From an uncultured Lachnospiraceae bacterium (GTDB taxonomy: Bacteria > Bacillota > Clostridia > Lachnospirales > Lachnospiraceae): a stretch of 43,628 nucleotides of DNA. The position numbers and the translations under genes are program-made. How positions within the stretch are numbered: position 1 is the stretch's first letter; each line of letters begins with the position of its first letter. Location of the stretch: positions 1-43,628 of the forward strand of contig CALZOU010000007.1 in the NCBI GenBank assembly GCA_945827805.1, written 5' to 3'. Shown here piece after piece: positions 2,225-25,307 of the stretch. Under the pieces are notes generated by a model, which was not told the origin of the DNA, ran no database searches, and saw only the letters and a program-made list of their open reading frames with translations.

Positions 2225-2515
2225 ATAAAAAAGCCCGGTCCTTTTGTTCTAAAAAACTAAAGGACGGGCTGATATCCCGTGTTACCACCTTTATTCACAG
2301 GTCTCTCACGATCCCTGCCTCATAGAGTACATCCATACTCTGACCCGTATAACGGAGGTTCTTCCGTCGCAGCCTACTGATCACGGTTCGGTGCGAAGCT
2401 CCGGGAGGTATTCATCCTGCTGTGACCCTAACGCCTCTCATCAACCGGCTGCTTTCTGTCGGACACGGGGCAGAATTACTTGTTCCCTTCATTGCCTTTC
2501 GTTTCCTCATTATAT
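2225..2515 (-). promoter_or_regulatory. T-box leader of tyrS with Tyr (UAC) specifier
   Basis: Minus strand: AAAGGTGGTAACACGGG T-box motif (about 2277-2293), terminator AGCCCGTCCTTTAG...AAAGGACCGGGCTTTTT (2227-2270), candidate specifier GAA-UAC at 2408-2410, AGUA motif upstream. Confidence 0.93.
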
Positions 2516-6277: not shown

Positions 6278-6306
6278 TTGATAGCCAACACTATGTTTGC
6301 TATAAT
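6278..6306 (+). promoter_or_regulatory. Sigma-A-type promoter of toxin mRNA
   Basis: TTGATA - 17 nt - TATAAT. Confidence 0.75.
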
Positions 6307-6444
6307 GAATTAGGGCATTATGCCTAAGGTGCTACCACACGTTGGCGTGTGTATGGCGGTTCGCTTTTTGCGGAGAGTTTATAGCTCCGATTACATAGAT
6401 TACTCTCTCATTTGAGAATTCTAATGGAAAGGAGGGCTCAGCTT

Positions 6445-6549
6445 ATGCTAACAATCGTTGACTTGATTGCAGTGCTTAGTCTCTGCTTAACCTCATTTGG
6501 TCTTGGCTATTCGATTGGATCTAATGGCATTAAGACCAAAAAGAAATAA
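6445..6549 (+). CDS. 34-aa hydrophobic peptide, candidate type I toxin (Hol_Tox/TxpA-like in character)
   Basis: MLTIVDLIAVLSLCLTSFGLGYSIGSNGIKTKKK*; AAGGAGG RBS at 6429-6435; single TM segment plus basic tail; below the ORF-track length cutoff. Confidence 0.75.
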   Translation: MLTIVDLIAVLSLCLTSFGLGYSIGSNGIKTKKK

Positions 6550-6628
6550 CCGCCCCAAACCTGACAAGTTGAGCGGTTATATCCTCACATTATAATCAGG
6601 CGAACCGTCATCGGTAGCACCTTTTCTA
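6536..6628 (-). ncRNA. Candidate antisense antitoxin RNA, copy A (about 93 nt)
   Basis: Follows TTGACA-17-TATTAT; ends at hairpin AACCGC...GCGGTT followed by ATTTCTTTTT; overlaps the 3' end of the toxin ORF. Confidence 0.65.
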
Positions 6629-6664
6629 TTTCTAATAATAGCACCACTTCTATTTCATGTCAAA
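6543..6664. repeat. Repeat copy A (antisense RNA gene), matched at 25187-25307
   Basis: Shared aaataaccgccccaaacctg..aagttgagcggttat...tcaggcgaaccgtcatcgg.agcacctt...ataatagcac..cttct...atgtcaaa. Confidence 0.9.
6635..6663 (-). promoter_or_regulatory. Sigma-A-type promoter of antisense RNA copy A
   Basis: TTGACA (6658-6663) - 17 nt - TATTAT (6635-6640), minus strand. Confidence 0.7.
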
Positions 6665-6720
6665 CATATAATCACGCAATCCTACTTCACTATATGCTCC
6701 TGTATATATGTTCAGTACTG

Positions 6721-7542
6721 TCAAGGAGACAATCCACAAACACCCCATCCATATTCAATATCATACCCCAACGCTCCCCGGTCCTCCGCTTCGTCCATAA
6801 GATACTTCTCAAATTCTTCCGGGGATTCCCAGGTTCGTCTGGCGCATATACCTGCGATCCGTGCCGCCGCATAAGACGTACCCTGACTCTCCCCGTCAAG
6901 GGAACTCGCAGGTGCCGTTACAAATACACTTTCATTTTTCTGACTGTAAGAAGCTGCCTCTCCGTTTTCCGTTACAGTGCCTACACCTATCACACTGTCA
7001 TAAGCCGCAGGATACAGCATCTTGTTCTTTTTGTATGTTTCGCCAAGATTTCCTGCCGCGCTGATCAGAATTACCTGATTACTCGCTGCATACTCCACCG
7101 CATTCTGCAGTTCTTCACTGTCCGGAATACTGAATGCCATACATACCACACGACAATCATATGTATCTACTGCGTCATAAATTGCCCGGATCACTTCTTC
7201 CGGCTTTGTATCCTGCTTGTCACCGGAGATTTTCAGAGGAACAATCACCGTCTCAGGAGCATATTGACAAATCACCTCTGCGATCCGTGTGCCATGACCG
7301 ATATCATCGTCTGTATGTATGGATTCATCAAGATAATTCCACCCCTCATCAATTGGAAGCGATTTCTCCGGACTGATTCCGGAATCCAATACCGCGACCC
7401 GTACAGCCGCAGATTTGTCTGAGTCAGTGATTCCACAGCCTGAAAGTATGAATAACAGCAATATAAGAAGACATCCTTTCCATTTTGCACGCATTCTTCT
7501 CGCCTGCCTTCTATCCATCCAAATAAATGACTCGTATCTCAC
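6721..7542 (-). CDS. Subtilisin-like S8 family serine protease, probable lipoprotein
   Basis: Asp in AVLDSGI, His in GHGTRIAEVI, oxyanion-region SAAGN, Ser in GTSYAAARIAG; lipobox-like LSGC near N-terminus. Confidence 0.88.
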   Translation of the reverse strand: MRYESFIWMDRRQARRMRAKWKGCLLILLLFILSGCGITDSDKSAAVRVAVLDSGISPEKSLPIDEGWNYLDESIHTDDDIGHGTRIAEVICQYAPETVIVPLKISGDKQDTKPEEVIRAIYDAVDTYDCRVVCMAFSIPDSEELQNAVEYAASNQVILISAAGNLGETYKKNKMLYPAAYDSVIGVGTVTENGEAASYSQKNESVFVTAPASSLDGESQGTSYAAARIAGICARRTWESPEEFEKYLMDEAEDRGALGYDIEYGWGVCGLSP

Positions 7543-8078: not shown

Positions 8079-11000
8079 TTAGTTTTCCACCATTCTGGCA
8101 TTAAACAGCAATCGCAAAGGCTTATCCTCTTCCTTTTCGCTGGTCTCAAAAAACTCAGCAAGAGAGAATGATTTCTTTTTTTCCGGTGTGGAAGAAGAGA
8201 TTACCATCATCTGACCAGACTCATCATCCACAGAACCATCATTCTGTTTTTCTGCTCCGATCTCTGTAATTCTGATGCGCACCTCGCGATTCTCCAGAGA
8301 AATATTTTCACTGACAGAAATCTGGGCCGTATCCTCTTCTCTGTTTATTTCATCCGGAATGATCAGCTCATAGGTTGTGGTAACCTCCATTGTCTGTGCC
8401 ACTGATGGTGAGAAAGCATCGTTTCCGCCATATCTCGCCTGCACCGTATACGTTCTCGCTGCCTGCAAACCGGTAAACTGATGATCTGACTGCCATGGAC
8501 CCTGATCAATACGATACTGGGTCTCACCGTATAGCTTGACATCTTCTTCGGGCAATGGTTTTACCCATACCATGGAATCGGTTACATAGGCCCTTGTCTC
8601 AGGAGGTGCCGGAATAGTTTTTTCAATCTGACATACCTGTTTTTCCGATTGTCCTCCATTATGATCTGTAGAGTTTTCGTCCGGAGTGAATACTGCATAA
8701 ATAACAGATTCACCCAGCTGAAGGTTCTTTGCAGAAATGGATGCCTGTCCATTTTTCAACTGCACGCTTTGTTCCAGAACATCATTGATATAGAAATCAA
8801 CCTGCCCTGTCTGTGCTGTTTCATCCACACCGGTAACGGTTGCCGTCAGACGAAGTTTCTGGCCCGACTCAACATGGAAAAGCTTTTTGATATTAGCCCA
8901 TACTCCTGTCTCTTCTTCGGCCGAAACGGTAAGACGGACAACTGGCTCTGCTCGATTAACTGTAATATCCATGGCCGCATCTGCTTCTGCCTGATAATTA
9001 CTGTCTCCCGTGGACGCAAGTACGGTGTATGTTCCTGCATGAAGCAGCGGTACCTTTTCTTTTGTCCGCAGTACGGCTTCGTGTCTTGTGCCTTTACTGT
9101 CTGTCCACGACGCGGATAACTGATCCATAAGATCTTTTCCCGTATACACAAGTTTCGGCACTTCTTCCCACTGGATCTGGACAGATGCCGGTAAGATACG
9201 ATATGTCCGTTTTGCGTTTTCCGGCAGTATGTAGTTATGATTTGTGGCCTCTACTGCTGCTGCTGTATATTCACCTGCATTAATGGCTGTATTTCCCTGC
9301 AGGCGAATCTCACACTTATCTTCGCCCACCAGATTTACCGCATATGTAGCGACAGCAGATGCTGTACCGTCATATGTTCTGTCCTGATATCCTTTCCACT
9401 CCAACTCCAGAACTTTAGGAACAACTGTCACTTTCTGCGAGTCGCTTGAAGCATTGTACACGTCATCTTCTGCTTTTGTTGCCGTGATAACCGCAGTTCC
9501 CACTTTTTTGATCACGGCTTTGCCATCTTCAACCGCTACTACCGACGGATCACTGCTTGTAAACGTAATATCTCCCTGACCACTGCCTCCACTGGCCAAT
9601 ATGTTCAGAGGTTCGTCACCATATACGGCATTATCAGTCATAGAAAGTTCGATCGGCTGTTGTGCTGCTTTCCCCGTAGCTGTAATCCGAACTTCTGTAC
9701 TTTCACTCACCATCCAGAGATCGTTCTCTGCATAGCGAACCTGATAATATCCGCTCTTTAATCCGGTGATCGTGCTTCCCTGTACAGGTGTCCAGTGATA
9801 GCCACTGTCACTGCTGTATTCCATTTCTTCTGTAACACCTGCGATCGTACCGTCAGTCGTGACCGTTGTCTGTGTATTGGAAGAAACAATCCCTGCCGGT
9901 TTATCACGTTTACCTTTATTTACGGTCAGCACAGCTGTTACTTCTGTTTCTTGATAACTTGCTGTTGCTTCTGTCTTCAGACGTATCTTAAAGTCTCCCG
10001 CTTTGGTCACGGTCAACCGGGAACCTTCCAATACACCTTCTCCGCTGCCGCCGATCAATGTATAAGCTGCCTCGCCGGCATTGGGATCAATCGTAAACAG
10101 TGCTGACACATCAATAGCATCCCCACCATACGTACAGGTCATATCTTTGGCCGCTGTATTCGTGCCCAGCTTCTGCACATTGATCGTCTGCCTTGCCCTG
10201 AGCTCATCGGGATTACGAACACCTTCCGGAAGAACCAGATCACCGTATACCGTACAATGCCCGGTAAGTTTTTCATTAAACGCACCTTTTGTCCACTGTA
10301 CCTGCATATCCACTGTCTCACCGTTATTCAGGGTCACTTGTACGTGATCCGGCAGTTTCAGCTGATCAAAGGTGGTTCCATAATCTGTAGAAATATCATT
10401 TAATTCAGCAATAGTCACTGCTTTTACCAGCAGATCAAAGGTAAATCGATCAGAAACCTCATACTCTCTTAACGTTCCGGTACTATCATGATAAGTTCCC
10501 CGTCCCGAGATTTCGACGGAAAAAGCGGCGTCAGGACGCTTCTTTAATACAAGGAACTGTCCGTTAACCTCCAGATAGTCATTTTCCGAAATACTCCACT
10601 CGACAGTCAGATCTTCGGGTGCTCCCGGAATACTGATATTCGCAACAGTGCTGCCTACGTCAGCATTCTCATCTATCACCAGATCAGATACCTGGATCTG
10701 TGCCGGTGTTATAGGCTGCTGCGCCACAGATACCATCAATGTCTGTTCCAATGAATAGCTGTCCGTCAGCGGATAACTTGCCATAACTACCGCATCTCCG
10801 GCATTTACCGCAGTAAGTGTATTTTCTTCCAGGGTAACAGCACCATCTCCCATCAGTACAGAACACTCAATCTTACTGCTGTCCAATGTAATCGTATTGC
10901 CATTTGTCATGACACCATAGTAACTCAGTTCGGCCTGATTACCCGCATACATGGTTTCCTTCTGTGTATCTGCGTCCACGATCATGCCATCGACCGCAAT

Positions 11001-14000
11001 GGAAAGCCCGGTCAGACCACTTAATTCCCCGGGAATTATCTCACACAGCTGACTGGTTGTATTTCCTGCCCGATCCTGTGCGCTTACCGTGATCTGCTGC
11101 GTATTGCCATTACCTGTACCTGAATACTCAAACCGTCCGTTTGTCACCGGTACTGTCTGCCCGTTTATGGTTACAGCACTGTTGTTTTCCGCAGTACCCG
11201 TAATGGTATACCGGTTATCCCGGCTCTGCACCACCACATTATCCAGCATCAGCTCCGGAGGCGTCGTATCGACTTCTACCGTCACGGTATTCTGCGTATA
11301 ATCTCCCTGTCCATTGATCGCGCATATGCCAATGTTGCTGCCGCCGTCGGCAAGGGTAAACGTATGAACTCTCGTTTCACCCGCATTCAGACTATGATCA
11401 AGGATTGCGCCTGATGCATCCGTAAGATACTCTCCGTCTACATCCAGAAGATAGCTGATATCCTGATCTGCAGTAATCGACAGCTGAATCTCCGAAGTAT
11501 TTGTCTGACCGGTAAAGGCATCATCCACCTGCGTCTGCGCTGCATCCCGGCTGTCATCCGAGGTTTTTGCGGCTGCTGTCAGAGATTTTCCATTTACTGT
11601 ATACGTAAGCTTGGCCGGGTTCGCCTCCGGTAATAACACCGGTTCTGTCTTCGCCACTTCTGAAACGAACGTGGTTCCGTTCACCGTTTTGCTTGCAGAG
11701 ACCACACCTATGTATTTTTTCCCGGGTATAACACCTACCTTCTTTGAGCCACTGATGATACGTTCTCCATTTGCATCTGTGACATAATGACCTTCACCAT
11801 CCTGCAGATATTCCGCTTCCTCAGCCGTATAGCCAAAATAGATCTCATGGTCCGTCGTGGTCATGCCTGTGACACCTTCCACAGCGTTGCCCTCTTCGTC
11901 TAACAGTGTAACAAAATACTCTTCAGTATCACCGGAAGCATCCCATTTCATCAAGAACTGACCGTCGCCTCCCGGTGTCATGGTAAATCCGGTTACCGCC
12001 TGAGGTGTATTCGGATTAACATACGTAAACGCATTATGTGTTAAATTCGATCCAACAGCATTTCCCGTATCATCATTAAGCACAAGACGTACCATGTATT
12101 CTCCGGACTGTGTATTTTCCGGAAGCTTTATCTGCACACTGCCGCTGGCTTTTCCTTCTCCATCCGGCGCGATCTCAACCGCTGATTCCGTGATCTTAAA
12201 TCCCGACGGTTCCGCTTCCATTCTGGAACGATAATACTCGCTGAGTTCATCTTCTGACAGTCTGTCCAGCTCCTCTTCTGCCAGCGTAGCCGGCTCCTGG
12301 GAAATCTCACTGGTATTTACAAGATACGCATCCAGTGAAGCCCCCGGCTGAGCACCGGATACACTGTATGATACATTGATTGTTCCGTCATTTTCTGTAA
12401 CAGAGGATGCCTGGATTCCTGCCACCTCATCTACTTTATGCGCTTCCATATTGAGCGGAATATCTGATTTTACGACCCATTTTCCGTTGACCGGTGCCAC
12501 GAGGCCAATGCCAAGATAATTCTCTTCTGTTCCGCTGTCCGACTCATCTGCGGATATGGTCTGCAGGATACAGTTTTCATCCTCTGTCAGCTGTACTTTC
12601 CTGCCGCTGGGATCATAAAGGGAAACGTGGTTCAGAATGCTGTCTCCATCCGCCAGCTGACTCTTATCGTAACCGATCTGGAAAAGACTGTAATCATTGT
12701 CTTTTATCGAAACCTCATAGCTATTGAGATTTGCCCTTGCGGATTTCTTCACAGCCATATCCGTCATATTGTCGCCAAGCAGCATGACGCCGTCCACATT
12801 GCTGTCACCGGTATCATACGTCACTGCCAGCGCATTTTCCAGATCTCCTTCCGGAATGGAGAATTGTTCGGCCAGATATTCCCAGTCGTCATAGAATTTG
12901 ACCTTTTTATCTGCCCAGTAATAGGACACCGAGATCGGTATGCCGATGACCCGGATACCTGCATAAACACGGTAACTGGACAGCTCTGCCATAACGGACA
13001 GAAGCTCTTTACCGCCAACCACAGGAACATAATCGGGAATAAAAATTCCGACATATGCCTTTCCTCCCAGGGAAAGGGGACCAAATATCGTATCCAGCCG
13101 CGGATCAGCCACCAGCCAGAAGCCTGTCTCACCACGGACAATGCCCAGAATATTTACTTTGGAATCCATGCCCAGATCCAGACAGGGATATACGCTTCCG
13201 TCGGCCATCTTTGTTCCGTAAAGCTTAATATGAGCGCCGATAGATTCAAAGACTTTCAGGCCTATGATCTTACCTTCTGCCGCTTCAAAGCTGACACCCT
13301 GACCGCCTACACTCATATTGACATCATCTACGGTAAAGGTAAACGTCGTCGGATCCACATATCCGGTATACACTGTAAGCGTAGTGGGCGGGAAGATATT
13401 AAAGTTTCCTTTGATCGTATCGTAAAGACCGGAAATACCACCACCCATTTTGTTCAGGAATCCAACAGGTCCCAGCGGGATTTTTACCACATCGCCGCCC
13501 ATGTAGAAGTACATGGAATCCGGATAGCAGTTTCCGCTGTCCTCCTTAACGAGAGAGAAGCCAAAACTACACTCAAATGTATCGCCGACTTTAACATTAC
13601 CGTCAACACCGATGAACCATCCCGGATAGTCAATAGAATCTATCTTAAAGCTTGCTCCGGCTCCGGCTTTGGTAAATTTGGGCATGGAGTCATCCGTAAG
13701 ATTGATGCCTCCCTCAGCCTTTACCCCCACAAGGTAAGCGCTGTTATCACTTTCTTTCTGACCATAACGCATTTCTTCCAGATTCAGTTCCAGGAAATTA
13801 TCTGTTTTCTGGCCTTCTCCGATACTGTTCAGATCATCCCGCTTATTATATTTTTGCTCCAGCGCAGATTGCGGCTCGTCATCATCGTCACCCTTTGCCG
13901 CCTTGCTCCACCATGGTAGGCTTACGGAAATGCTTCCGCCTAAAGAAATGGTTTCCACACCAAGAACTGCATTGCTGATCTCTACCTGAAAACCGGTAAG

Positions 14001-16211
14001 TGCTCCCACCGTTTTTGTCAGCTGACTACCGACAACACCGGCCGGCGTAATGATCTCCACGTCATCTGTTCTCTGGTAATCCTCTCCGATCTCACCATCG
14101 CTGATGTTGTCGTTAAGGTCTTCGTTATTGCTGTCATCGTCAACGCCGCGCAGCTCGTAATTCTTTTCATCTTCCAGGCAGATATAAAAATCACCTACAT
14201 GGAACAGATAATCGCCTACATATAGCCCTCCCTCACCGGTAAATACCAGAGCATCGCTGACCTTACCAAACCATTTCCATCCCGAAAACTGAGATTTAAA
14301 CTGATCTTTCAGACCGTCCGTCTCTGGATGATCTGAATAACGTGTTACCGTAATCACCGCTTCTTTGTTAAAACTGTTGCGATAACGGATCGCTGAATTT
14401 ATGATGGCGCCATTTGCAATGGTATAGTATTCATGGCCGCCCATCTCATATGTACCGATGGTGCCCCGGATCGTCATCAGGATATTGCTGCTTTCCTCTT
14501 CGGTCATGGCCGCCATATCTTCTTCATTCTCCAGAAGACGCACGCCATAATACTTTTCACCTGCCTCATCCGTCATCTGACCCACAAGCATAACGCCATA
14601 TTCAATACGGTCAAACTTCGGATCGTCCGTCATCTGCAGAGCCACGGACAGATTGCCATATCTCTCTGCATTCAGACACAGTCTGCATTCTCCGGGAGCA
14701 TACGAAAACTCCTGATTCCCCGGAAGTGAAACTGTCATTGTGGAATCATCGGCAATAGCTATGGACGCTTTGGAAACAGGTACATTCTGTTCTGACAATG
14801 GATCTGTAAGAGTCATAGTCCAGTCATTGTCTGCCTGAAGGAAGGAGAAACCGGTACCTTTTAACGTAACTTTTTTTTCAACACTTCCCGTATATAACGT
14901 TGCCGGAGCCACTTCGGTGATCTGAAGCTTTGGCAGTTCACCTTTACGGCCGGGAATGATCACATATTTCATTCCTTCTGCCGTGATATCTCCTGATGTC
15001 ACCTGAACCCCAAGGTGTGCCACCGTCGTTTTGTCCTGAAGGGACGGAAAGACTTTAAATGTGGCTGTATAACTGCCTCCTGCATCCAGATCGATATAGG
15101 CCGTGTCACTGCCCTGGGCTATACTGAATTCATCAGAAAGCCCCAGTTTTACAGTCACATCCTCCATTACCTGATCCGTATCATTCGTCACCTGCACAAG
15201 GACATCAAACGGATCATTATCCGCTGAGAAAGCTTCCCCGCTGCTGTCCAGCGAAAGCTTCTGGGGCGCATTGATCTGAACGCTGATCCCCTCATCACCT
15301 ACTGTATCGGATATACTTCCTATACCATAGTAAGTTTCATAGATACGGTGTTCTCCTGCTGCCAGCGAAGAAGCATCATAATATAAAGCAACCGCACTGT
15401 CTGCACGTTCATATGCATTCTTATTGGTTGTAAAATTCAGATAGGGGTTGATCTCGCAGTCCCATTTGGTGCCGGACAGGGTATTCCAATGGGCTGCCAC
15501 CATTTTATCCGGGCGAAGAGCATCTTCCCAGCCATACAACACGCCTCTTGCTGTCACATTTGCGGCATACTGCCGATCCGAAGACTGCCACACCATGGGA
15601 ACCTGCGCACCGGAAAACTCTGTTTCATTGGTAACATAGGTACGTTCCGCCAGCATAGCCGAGCCGTCATTTGACCCCAGCATGGTATCCAGCAAAATAC
15701 GGCTTCCCAATTGCACAGCTTTTCCGGAACCATTGGCCACTTCGTAACGGATCCGCACATTTCCCACATCCGGATCCGCAAAATCCGTGACCAGTCTCAG
15801 CTGCTGTGTTACCTGTACGCCGTTAACCTGCCAGATCGTGGTGGCTGTTGTACCCTGTACACTGGTGGGGGTAACAATACCTCCCTGTACACCATAATCA
15901 TTACCAAAAATGTAATCTTTCCCATCTATGCGGATCGTTGTGAAACTGGTATCCGGAGTGTTGTCAAAGAAACTCAGCAGACGGTTACGATCACTGGTCT
16001 TGCTGGGCAATCCATCTTCCGTAGACACCACATAACGTCCTGTACTGCGATTGACCCGTACCTGTACAAGTGAGTTTCCCACTGTAAGTACGGCATCCGT
16101 ACGGAGCAAAGGCGCTGCTTCTGCAACAACATTAAGCGAAACAGGACAGACCATCGCCGCACACAGGACAACCGCAATAAATTTTCGTAAATACTTCTTT
16201 ATTCTGTTCAT
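8079..16211 (-). CDS. Giant exported multidomain protein (2710 aa) with Ig-like, YDG/MBG-like modules and an unassigned N-terminal region
   Basis: Signal peptide MNRIKKYLRKFIAVVLCAAMVCPVSLNVVAEA; modules such as TYDGTASAVATYAVN...INAGEYTAAAV; no LPxTG or C-terminal TM. Confidence 0.85.
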   Translation of the reverse strand: MNRIKKYLRKFIAVVLCAAMVCPVSLNVVAEAAPLLRTDAVLTVGNSLVQVRVNRSTGRYVVSTEDGLPSKTSDRNRLLSFFDNTPDTSFTTIRIDGKDYIFGNDYGVQGGIVTPTSVQGTTATTIWQVNGVQVTQQLRLVTDFADPDVGNVRIRYEVANGSGKAVQLGSRILLDTMLGSNDGSAMLAERTYVTNETEFSGAQVPMVWQSSDRQYAANVTARGVLYGWEDALRPDKMVAAHWNTLSGTKWDCEINPYLNFTTNKNAYERADSAVALYYDASSLAAGEHRIYETYYGIGSISDTVGDEGISVQINAPQKLSLDSSGEAFSADNDPFDVLVQVTNDTDQVMEDVTVKLGLSDEFSIAQGSDTAYIDLDAGGSYTATFKVFPSLQDKTTVAHLGVQVTSGDITAEGMKYVIIPGRKGELPKLQITEVAPATLYTGSVEKKVTLKGTGFSFLQADNDWTMTLTDPLSEQNVPVSKASIAIADDSTMTVSLPGNQEFSYAPGECRLCLNAERYGNLSVALQMTDDPKFDRIEYGVMLVGQMTDEAGEKYYGVRLLENEEDMAAMTEEESSNILMTIRGTIGTYEMGGHEYYTIANGAIINSAIRYRNSFNKEAVITVTRYSDHPETDGLKDQFKSQFSGWKWFGKVSDALVFTGEGGLYVGDYLFHVGDFYICLEDEKNYELRGVDDDSNNEDLNDNISDGEIGEDYQRTDDVEIITPAGVVGSQLTKTVGALTGFQVEISNAVLGVETISLGGSISVSLPWWSKAAKGDDDDEPQSALEQKYNKRDDLNSIGEGQKTDNFLELNLEEMRYGQKESDNSAYLVGVKAEGGINLTDDSMPKFTKAGAGASFKIDSIDYPGWFIGVDGNVKVGDTFECSFGFSLVKEDSGNCYPDSMYFYMGGDVVKIPLGPVGFLNKMGGGISGLYDTIKGNFNIFPPTTLTVYTGYVDPTTFTFTVDDVNMSVGGQGVSFEAAEGKIIGLKVFESIGAHIKLYGTKMADGSVYPCLDLGMDSKVNILGIVRGETGFWLVADPRLDTIFGPLSLGGKAYVGIFIPDYVPVVGGKELLSVMAELSSYRVYAGIRVIGIPISVSYYWADKKVKFYDDWEYLAEQFSIPEGDLENALAVTYDTGDSNVDGVMLLGDNMTDMAVKKSARANLNSYEVSIKDNDYSLFQIGYDKSQLADGDSILNHVSLYDPSGRKVQLTEDENCILQTISADESDSGTEENYLGIGLVAPVNGKWVVKSDIPLNMEAHKVDEVAGIQASSVTENDGTINVSYSVSGAQPGASLDAYLVNTSEISQEPATLAEEELDRLSEDELSEYYRSRMEAEPSGFKITESAVEIAPDGEGKASGSVQIKLPENTQSGEYMVRLVLNDDTGNAVGSNLTHNAFTYVNPNTPQAVTGFTMTPGGDGQFLMKWDASGDTEEYFVTLLDEEGNAVEGVTGMTTTDHEIYFGYTAEEAEYLQDGEGHYVTDANGERIISGSKKVGVIPGKKYIGVVSASKTVNGTTFVSEVAKTEPVLLPEANPAKLTYTVNGKSLTAAAKTSDDSRDAAQTQVDDAFTGQTNTSEIQLSITADQDISYLLDVDGEYLTDASGAILDHSLNAGETRVHTFTLADGGSNIGICAINGQGDYTQNTVTVEVDTTPPELMLDNVVVQSRDNRYTITGTAENNSAVTINGQTVPVTNGRFEYSGTGNGNTQQITVSAQDRAGNTTSQLCEIIPGELSGLTGLSIAVDGMIVDADTQKETMYAGNQAELSYYGVMTNGNTITLDSSKIECSVLMGDGAVTLEENTLTAVNAGDAVVMASYPLTDSYSLEQTLMVSVAQQPITPAQIQVSDLVIDENADVGSTVANISIPGAPEDLTVEWSISENDYLEVNGQFLVLKKRPDAAFSVEISGRGTYHDSTGTLREYEVSDRFTFDLLVKAVTIAELNDISTDYGTTFDQLKLPDHVQVTLNNGETVDMQVQWTKGAFNEKLTGHCTVYGDLVLPEGVRNPDELRARQTINVQKLGTNTAAKDMTCTYGGDAIDVSALFTIDPNAGEAAYTLIGGSGEGVLEGSRLTVTKAGDFKIRLKTEATASYQETEVTAVLTVNKGKRDKPAGIVSSNTQTTVTTDGTIAGVTEEMEYSSDSGYHWTPVQGSTITGLKSGYYQVRYAENDLWMVSESTEVRITATGKAAQQPIELSMTDNAVYGDEPLNILASGGSGQGDITFTSSDPSVVAVEDGKAVIKKVGTAVITATKAEDDVYNASSDSQKVTVVPKVLELEWKGYQDRTYDGTASAVATYAVNLVGEDKCEIRLQGNTAINAGEYTAAAVEATNHNYILPENAKRTYRILPASVQIQWEEVPKLVYTGKDLMDQLSASWTDSKGTRHEAVLRTKEKVPLLHAGTYTVLASTGDSNYQAEADAAMDITVNRAEPVVRLTVSAEEETGVWANIKKLFHVESGQKLRLTATVTGVDETAQTGQVDFYINDVLEQSVQLKNGQASISAKNLQLGESVIYAVFTPDENSTDHNGGQSEKQVCQIEKTIPAPPETRAYVTDSMVWVKPLPEEDVKLYGETQYRIDQGPWQSDHQFTGLQAARTYTVQARYGGNDAFSPSVAQTMEVTTTYELIIPDEINREEDTAQISVSENISLENREVRIRITEIGAEKQNDGSVDDESGQMMVISSSTPEKKKSFSLAEFFETSEKEEDKPLRLLFNARMVEN

Positions 16212-25170: not shown

Positions 25171-25184
25171 AAATATTTCGCTCC

Positions 25185-25271
25185 AAAAAATAACCGCCCC
25201 AAACCTGGAAAGTTGAGCGGTTATTTTGTCTCACAATGATCAGGCGAACCGTCATCGGCAGCACCTTCTTT
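25185..25271 (-). ncRNA. Solo antisense-type small RNA, copy B (about 87 nt), no adjacent toxin ORF
   Basis: Promoter TTGACA-17-TATTAT, conserved 5' GAAGGTGCTGCCGATGACGGTTCGCC, terminator AACCGC...GCGGTTATTTTTT. Confidence 0.65.
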
Positions 25272-25307
25272 ATGATGATAATAGCACTGCTTCTACCTTA
25301 TGTCAAA
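25187..25307. repeat. Repeat copy B of the antisense RNA gene
   Basis: Aligns with 6543-6664 along its whole length with scattered substitutions. Confidence 0.9.
25278..25306 (-). promoter_or_regulatory. Sigma-A-type promoter of solo sRNA copy B
   Basis: TTGACA (25301-25306) - 17 nt - TATTAT (25278-25283), minus strand. Confidence 0.72.

Follow-up and report, generated by a model that had tools for sequence, protein, structure and literature searches.

What could be the advantage, for an antisense RNA, of beginning with the same sequence as the mRNA that it opposes and, for that mRNA, of having ends complementary to each other? The question is raised by a locus found in the window analysed here, i.e., a stretch of 43,628 nucleotides of DNA from an uncultured Lachnospiraceae bacterium, whose positions 6278–6663 constitute a convergent module consisting of the gene of a hydrophobic peptide of 34 amino acids and of an antisense RNA of ~90 nt that runs across the 3′ end of the peptide mRNA and terminates at a hairpin with which the stop codon of the toxin overlaps (Table 1). 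We regard it as rather probable that the locus is a type I toxin–antitoxin module; its gene layout, antisense RNA and panhandle (the helix joining the two mRNA ends) can be read from the sequence, and the roles of these parts we infer. The peptide is probably membrane-acting.

Table 1. Features of the module and of the toxin-less antisense gene in the window
Feature	Position	Strand	Remarks
Toxin promoter TTGATA-17-TATAAT	6278–6306	+	matches 11/12; TG precedes second hexamer; predicted start ~6313
Panhandle 5′ block 1, AAGGTGCTACC	6326–6336	+	partner 6613–6623; covaries among relatives
Hairpin CACACG-TTGG-CGTGTG, between blocks	6336–6351	+	from folding
Panhandle 5′ block 2, ATGGCGGTTCGC	6353–6364	+	partner 6600–6611; covaries
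Leader hairpin CGGAG..CUCCG	6371–6389	+	CUCC arm a possible anti-Shine-Dalgarno; pairs with SD in leader-only fold
Shine-Dalgarno (SD) AAAGGAGGG	6428–6436	+	strong, from sequence; mostly paired in all isoforms according to prediction
Toxin ORF, 34 aa, MLTIVDLIAVLSLCLTSFGLGYSIGSNGIKTKKK	6445–6549	+	hydrophobic; own promoter and SD
Terminator hairpin common to both directions	6543–6583		apparently tuned to antisense strand (U-tract and G–U counts)
Panhandle 3′ block 2, GCGAACCGTCAT	6600–6611	+	partner of 6353–6364
Panhandle 3′ block 1, GGTAGCACCTT	6613–6623	+	partner of 6326–6336
Antisense (putative antitoxin) RNA	6540–6630	−	5′ end repeats toxin 5′ UTR; covariance model match 6540–6625, 84 bits
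Antisense promoter TTGACA-17-TATTAT	6635–6663	−	matches 11/12, with TG; kept in relatives
Orphan antisense RNA, toxin-less	25184–25269	−	81 bits; promoter TTGACA-17-TATTAT, 11/12

The window also contains a T-box leader (2257–2501, minus strand, 103 bits) and an open frame of 2710 amino acids resembling a repeat-rich secreted protein (8079–16211, minus strand), adjoined by a protein with an S8 peptidase domain (6721–7542).

Pairing of the mRNA ends

The complementarities described in the first-pass annotation were recovered in full: the two strands of block 1 match at 100% over 11 nt, those of block 2 pair over 12 nt with one G–U, and the hairpin said to lie between the two 5′ blocks is located there, with C6336 in common with block 1. 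When the predicted full-length mRNA (6313–6632) is folded, every 5′–3′ pair forms with a probability of 0.73–1.0 and the folding energy has a z-score of −5.65 with respect to dinucleotide shuffles; over 84 loci, the mean predicted closure probability of the full-length RNAs is 0.94. In most loci the first base of block 1 lies 6–9 nt past the −10 box, so that the 5′ end of the mRNA should itself be inside the helix, whereas the leader of the window, unlike these loci, in which the first bases enter the helix, has a small extra 5′ hairpin. Furthermore, instead of the inter-block hairpin of the window, most relatives have a CUACC..GGUAG hairpin, which makes use of block 1 itself and is kept, in most of them, at 93–100% of the cells per pair; this hairpin is a candidate for an early fold comparable to the metastable hairpins of aapA (PMC6733600). 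On the other hand, a three-way switch seen in the window leader, with block 2 alternating with a local GCGGA and thereby freeing the anti-SD, is not claimed, since the matching segment is absent by eye in several relatives (e.g., L023, L029, L010).

The 5′–3′ complementarity is confirmed to be real, far above chance and conserved. The first-pass annotation had staked its proposal on covariation of the paired blocks among homologues, and such covariation is indeed what the relatives display: in 64 distinct toxin loci (block sets), 97.2% of the 5′–3′ cells are paired and two-sided changes are seen in 13 of the 20 pairs, while none of 500 shuffles matches the observed pairing and, with a one-base slide as control, pairing falls to 33–41%. 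On a tree of the toxin coding DNA which, being built on ~100 bases, is poorly resolved, both partners have changed on 27 branches and have remained paired on all 27, compared to a random expectation of 6.1 ± 2.1 (0 of 2000 randomizations). Departures from identity are G–U in 85 cases and A–C in 15, G–U being favored in most columns and nearly fixed at pair 11 (60 of 64); this excess indicates selection on pairing within the sense RNA and not mere identity of the repeats. The 3′ blocks also fit their own leaders (mean −42.2 kcal/mol) better than do the blocks of other members (−35.2), the mean for shuffled leaders being −20.9, and the panhandle is retained in more distant loci having quite different block sequences (L281, L284, L288 and L290). 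Since the only molecule carrying both blocks is a sense transcript that proceeds past ~6623, the selected covariation implies that some sense mRNA would extend to 6623.

Translation, transcript ends and the antisense RNA

The premise that long-distance 5′–3′ pairing itself silences translation found no support in the folding analysis. Indeed, in the 84 loci the SD is predicted to be mostly paired whether or not the ends are closed, its mean unpaired value being 0.16 in leader-only, 0.17 in leader plus ORF and 0.27 in full-length RNAs, and this similarity indicates that SD occlusion is local. These values bear on a reading of the panhandle as a translational off-switch in the style of hok and aapA, in which the closed mRNA would be inert, 3′ trimming would activate it and the antisense would catch the open form. 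Exactly such a role is played by the 5′–3′ long-distance interaction of aapA (PMC6733600), and the mean closure probability of the full-length RNAs would be fitting; however, both SD and start codon lie outside the panhandle, closure does not lower the predicted accessibility of the SD (0.27 vs. 0.17) and the antisense aims at the 3′ end, unlike aapA/IsoA, where the target is the 5′ end, so that we consider the off-switch doubtful. The likeliest role of the panhandle, in our analysis, would be in mRNA stability and antisense control; in the Fst mRNA, burial of the 5′ end is known to be one source of stability (PMC7472228).

A second alternative is that the toxin mRNA normally stops at the common hairpin, that 3′ pairing and RNase III suffice for control and that the panhandle belongs to a minor read-through form. 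The hairpin is followed by a U-tract in 83 of 84 loci in the antisense direction and in 46 of 84 in the sense direction and, read on the antisense strand, has 29 G–U versus 5 A–C, so that it appears to serve the antisense; yet the good sense U-tract in about half of the loci means that part of the mRNA may stop short of the 3′ block. That RatA acts through RNase III alone (PMC3531473, PMC6562991) also speaks in favor of an early stop. Against it are the poor termination to be expected from the sense tail that follows the common hairpin in the window, TATATCCTCAC, and, above all, the strong covariation, which calls for one selected molecule with both blocks, and an early stop is therefore rather improbable as the normal condition. 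The T-run following the 3′ block was considered as a sense terminator and set aside: it is equally strong in orphans and in full loci and hence uninformative on sense termination.

Far less likely is that the repeats matter as DNA, with gene conversion, or a protein binding the start regions of both promoters, maintaining the similarity of the inverted copies. Although both RNAs begin with the same sequence just past their −10 boxes, as this explanation would have it, conversion or selection for identity would be strand-symmetric, whereas the departures are 85:15 in favor of G–U and one G–U is nearly fixed (60 of 64 block sets). Finally, a functionless inverted repeat due to chance or low complexity, for which no supporting point was found, is hardly credible in view of the z-score of −5.65 and of the covariation across genera.

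A further-reaching reading, which we consider less probable than not, is a joint one, namely that selection has shaped the 5′ end of the antitoxin to take the place of the toxin leader on the shared 3′ strand and that the orphan antisense RNAs are antitoxic in trans toward related modules. The antisense had been proposed to begin with the sequence of the toxin leader and to act as a mimic of the toxin 5′ UTR. In fact, AAGGTGCTACCGATGACGGTTCGCC is present at its 5′ end, but the start predicted from the promoter (6663–6635, minus strand) lies a few nt further upstream; likewise, the repetition of the 5′ sequence is borne out, while the competition for the 3′ strand is something that predicted energies favor. 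The mimicry is a geometric consequence of the 5′–3′ pairing and of the transcription of the antisense across the 3′ strand. In co-folding, the antisense is predicted to occupy the 3′ strand and the leader, once released, to revert to its local hairpins, with a net gain of −103 kcal/mol, which makes competition between antisense and 5′ UTR for the 3′ strand plausible. The antisense may also have an internal helix between the bases following block 2 and the terminator loop (−5.49 with its own partner vs. −4.53 ± 0.17 in permutations), possibly a pseudoknot.

The mechanism that we propose can be outlined as follows. In the full-length toxin mRNA the two ends would be joined in a helix that encloses the 5′ end, local pairing would hide the SD, and an mRNA both stable and little translated would result from panhandle and hidden SD together. 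The antisense, sharing the 5′ sequence of the mRNA, would dislodge the 5′ UTR from its 3′ partner strand and form with the mRNA a duplex of ~90 bp, a substrate for RNase III; the displacement would also leave the 5′ end of the mRNA open to decay. Toxin would be produced when the level of antisense drops or, in some relatives, when SOS-type promoters fire. As to the latter, a box resembling CGAACATATGTTCG, which we take to be the Gram-positive LexA consensus, is found in 24 of 83 toxin promoters (29%; among them those of L008, L024, L088, L137 and L029), compared to 1.3% of shuffles and 2.4% of antisense promoters. The toxin promoter of the window was rejected as a carrier, having a degenerate half box in the spacer with a score of 4.8, the scores of relatives reaching 8.9. 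Antisense promoters (e.g., window 6635–6675, minus strand) have a conserved upstream ATATATGTTTGACA that is similar to one half of the SOS-type box found in toxin promoters.

Distribution of the module and relation to known systems

Of 396 genomes from the family of the host (by record titles mostly Lachnospiraceae), 182 have matches to a covariance model of the antisense, with up to 8 per genome, as do 70 of 292 genomes of a class-wide sample, where the scores are weaker and some of the genomes belong to the host's family; a profile of the toxin, applied to 250 genomes of this family, has matches in 71. Among the matches listed in a pattern scan, most are from Lachnospiraceae (Butyrivibrio, Roseburia, Coprococcus, Pseudobutyrivibrio, Faecalicatena, Mediterraneibacter) and a few bear Anaerovibrio, Oscillospiraceae or other labels; records of Coprococcus comes and Faecalicatena contorta are among them. 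One genome of the class has a tandem array of five antisense matches ~400 nt apart (L285, G543:C1:2361976-2363900). A phage origin was considered and rejected, the antisense pattern being matched in only 5 IMG/VR contigs.

Of 139 distinct antisense units, 90 are accompanied by a toxin ORF preceded by a credible SD, and the position in the hairpin at which this ORF ends is nearly always the same. Within one RNA frame the peptides form several groups between which no common sequence is obvious, so that toxins appear to have been exchanged behind a constant RNA. The window toxin has no match in Pfam or NCBIfam, and the locus has none in Rfam at gathering or relaxed thresholds except for chance ones to an upstream hairpin; Hol_Tox (PF16935, putative holin-like toxins) is matched weakly by one toxin group (E 0.0019; 18.5 bits vs. 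a cut-off of 23.3) and by neither the window toxin nor the main peptide group. No description of the family was found in the open full-text literature searched, most subscription journals lying outside its coverage.

Toxin and antisense differ in how often either occurs without the other. An antisense is present near 45 of the 50 toxin loci that were identified from the protein only, and in four of the remaining five, admittedly a small set, the signals are broken: there is a stop right after the ATG in L331, no start in L341, an insertion between SD and ATG in L308 and loss of the SD in L332, while in L323 an insertion cuts the antisense at the contig edge. Conversely, no toxin passing the ORF test accompanies 49 of the 139 antisense genes, of which 37 have a good promoter, the set having been chosen by antisense conservation and the test being one that may have missed a few toxins. 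This asymmetry, with toxins rarely without antisense and antisense often without toxin, is suggestive only. The genome under study has, in addition to the present module, a second full copy and a decayed one, as well as two antisense genes without toxin. One of these two lies in the window; this orphan gene (25184–25306, minus strand), 18.5 kb from the full module, has promoter and terminator intact, and its RNA is predicted to pair with the toxin mRNA in trans with a net energy of −59 kcal/mol. Short palindromic insertions, perhaps a small mobile element, occur in the toxin leaders of L308 (e.g., ACCGACCGAAGCGGAGCGG), L332, L034 and L009.

Among the known systems, the module resembles txpA/RatA, bsrG/SR4 and bsrE/SR5 of Bacillus subtilis in its short hydrophobic toxin, convergent genes, local SD helix and antitoxin overlapping the mRNA 3′ end, there by ~100 nt; in this class SR4 invades the 3′ part of helix P1 of bsrG (PMC6562991, PMC7430163). 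It differs in its shorter antisense (~90 nt vs. 160–220), in having an antisense 5′ end equal to that of the mRNA and in the covariation of the panhandle across many genera. In Pfam, NCBIfam and Rfam no sequence relation was found between the window locus and txpA/RatA or bsrG/SR4, so that the module would work like this class but, no homologous toxin or RNA sequence having been detected, is not assigned to it as a member. Long-distance 5′–3′ pairing of the toxin mRNA is shared with aapA/IsoA of Helicobacter pylori and with hok/Sok, in which metastable local hairpins form earlier (PMC6733600); there, however, the SD is sequestered and the 5′ region targeted, whereas in the present module the panhandle does not include the SD and the antisense is directed to the 3′ end. 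The par locus of pAD1 (Fst/RNA II) likewise has convergent promoters, a common terminator hairpin and a stabilizing helix that encloses the 5′ end of its mRNA (PMC7472228), but its repeats are direct and its 5′ ends complementary, while here the repeats are inverted and the 5′ ends alike; to judge from the sequence, the module is the topological opposite of par, and the Fst peptides are unrelated to the present toxins. The CD-RCd systems of Clostridioides difficile share convergent antisense RNAs, membrane toxins of 34–53 amino acids and the presence of several copies per genome, but have other peptides, and the portions of the reports consulted make no mention of 5′–3′ pairing (PMC6563280, PMC7699646).

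Both 5′–3′ pairing in type I toxin mRNAs and antisense RNAs directed to the 3′ end are known from the systems compared above; here they occur in a single arrangement supported by covariation, where two 5′ ends of almost the same sequence, that of the mRNA in cis and that of the antisense in trans, could compete for a single 3′ strand, and antitoxin strand displacement thus becomes accessible to compensatory mutation. If the antitoxin is a true mimic, a single binding event would open the panhandle, expose the 5′ end to decay and form the RNase III duplex. The module would represent a widespread type I family of gut and rumen Lachnospiraceae, absent from the protein and RNA libraries searched, whose swapped toxins, orphan antitoxin genes and SOS-type promoters would offer a natural experiment on module evolution and induction.
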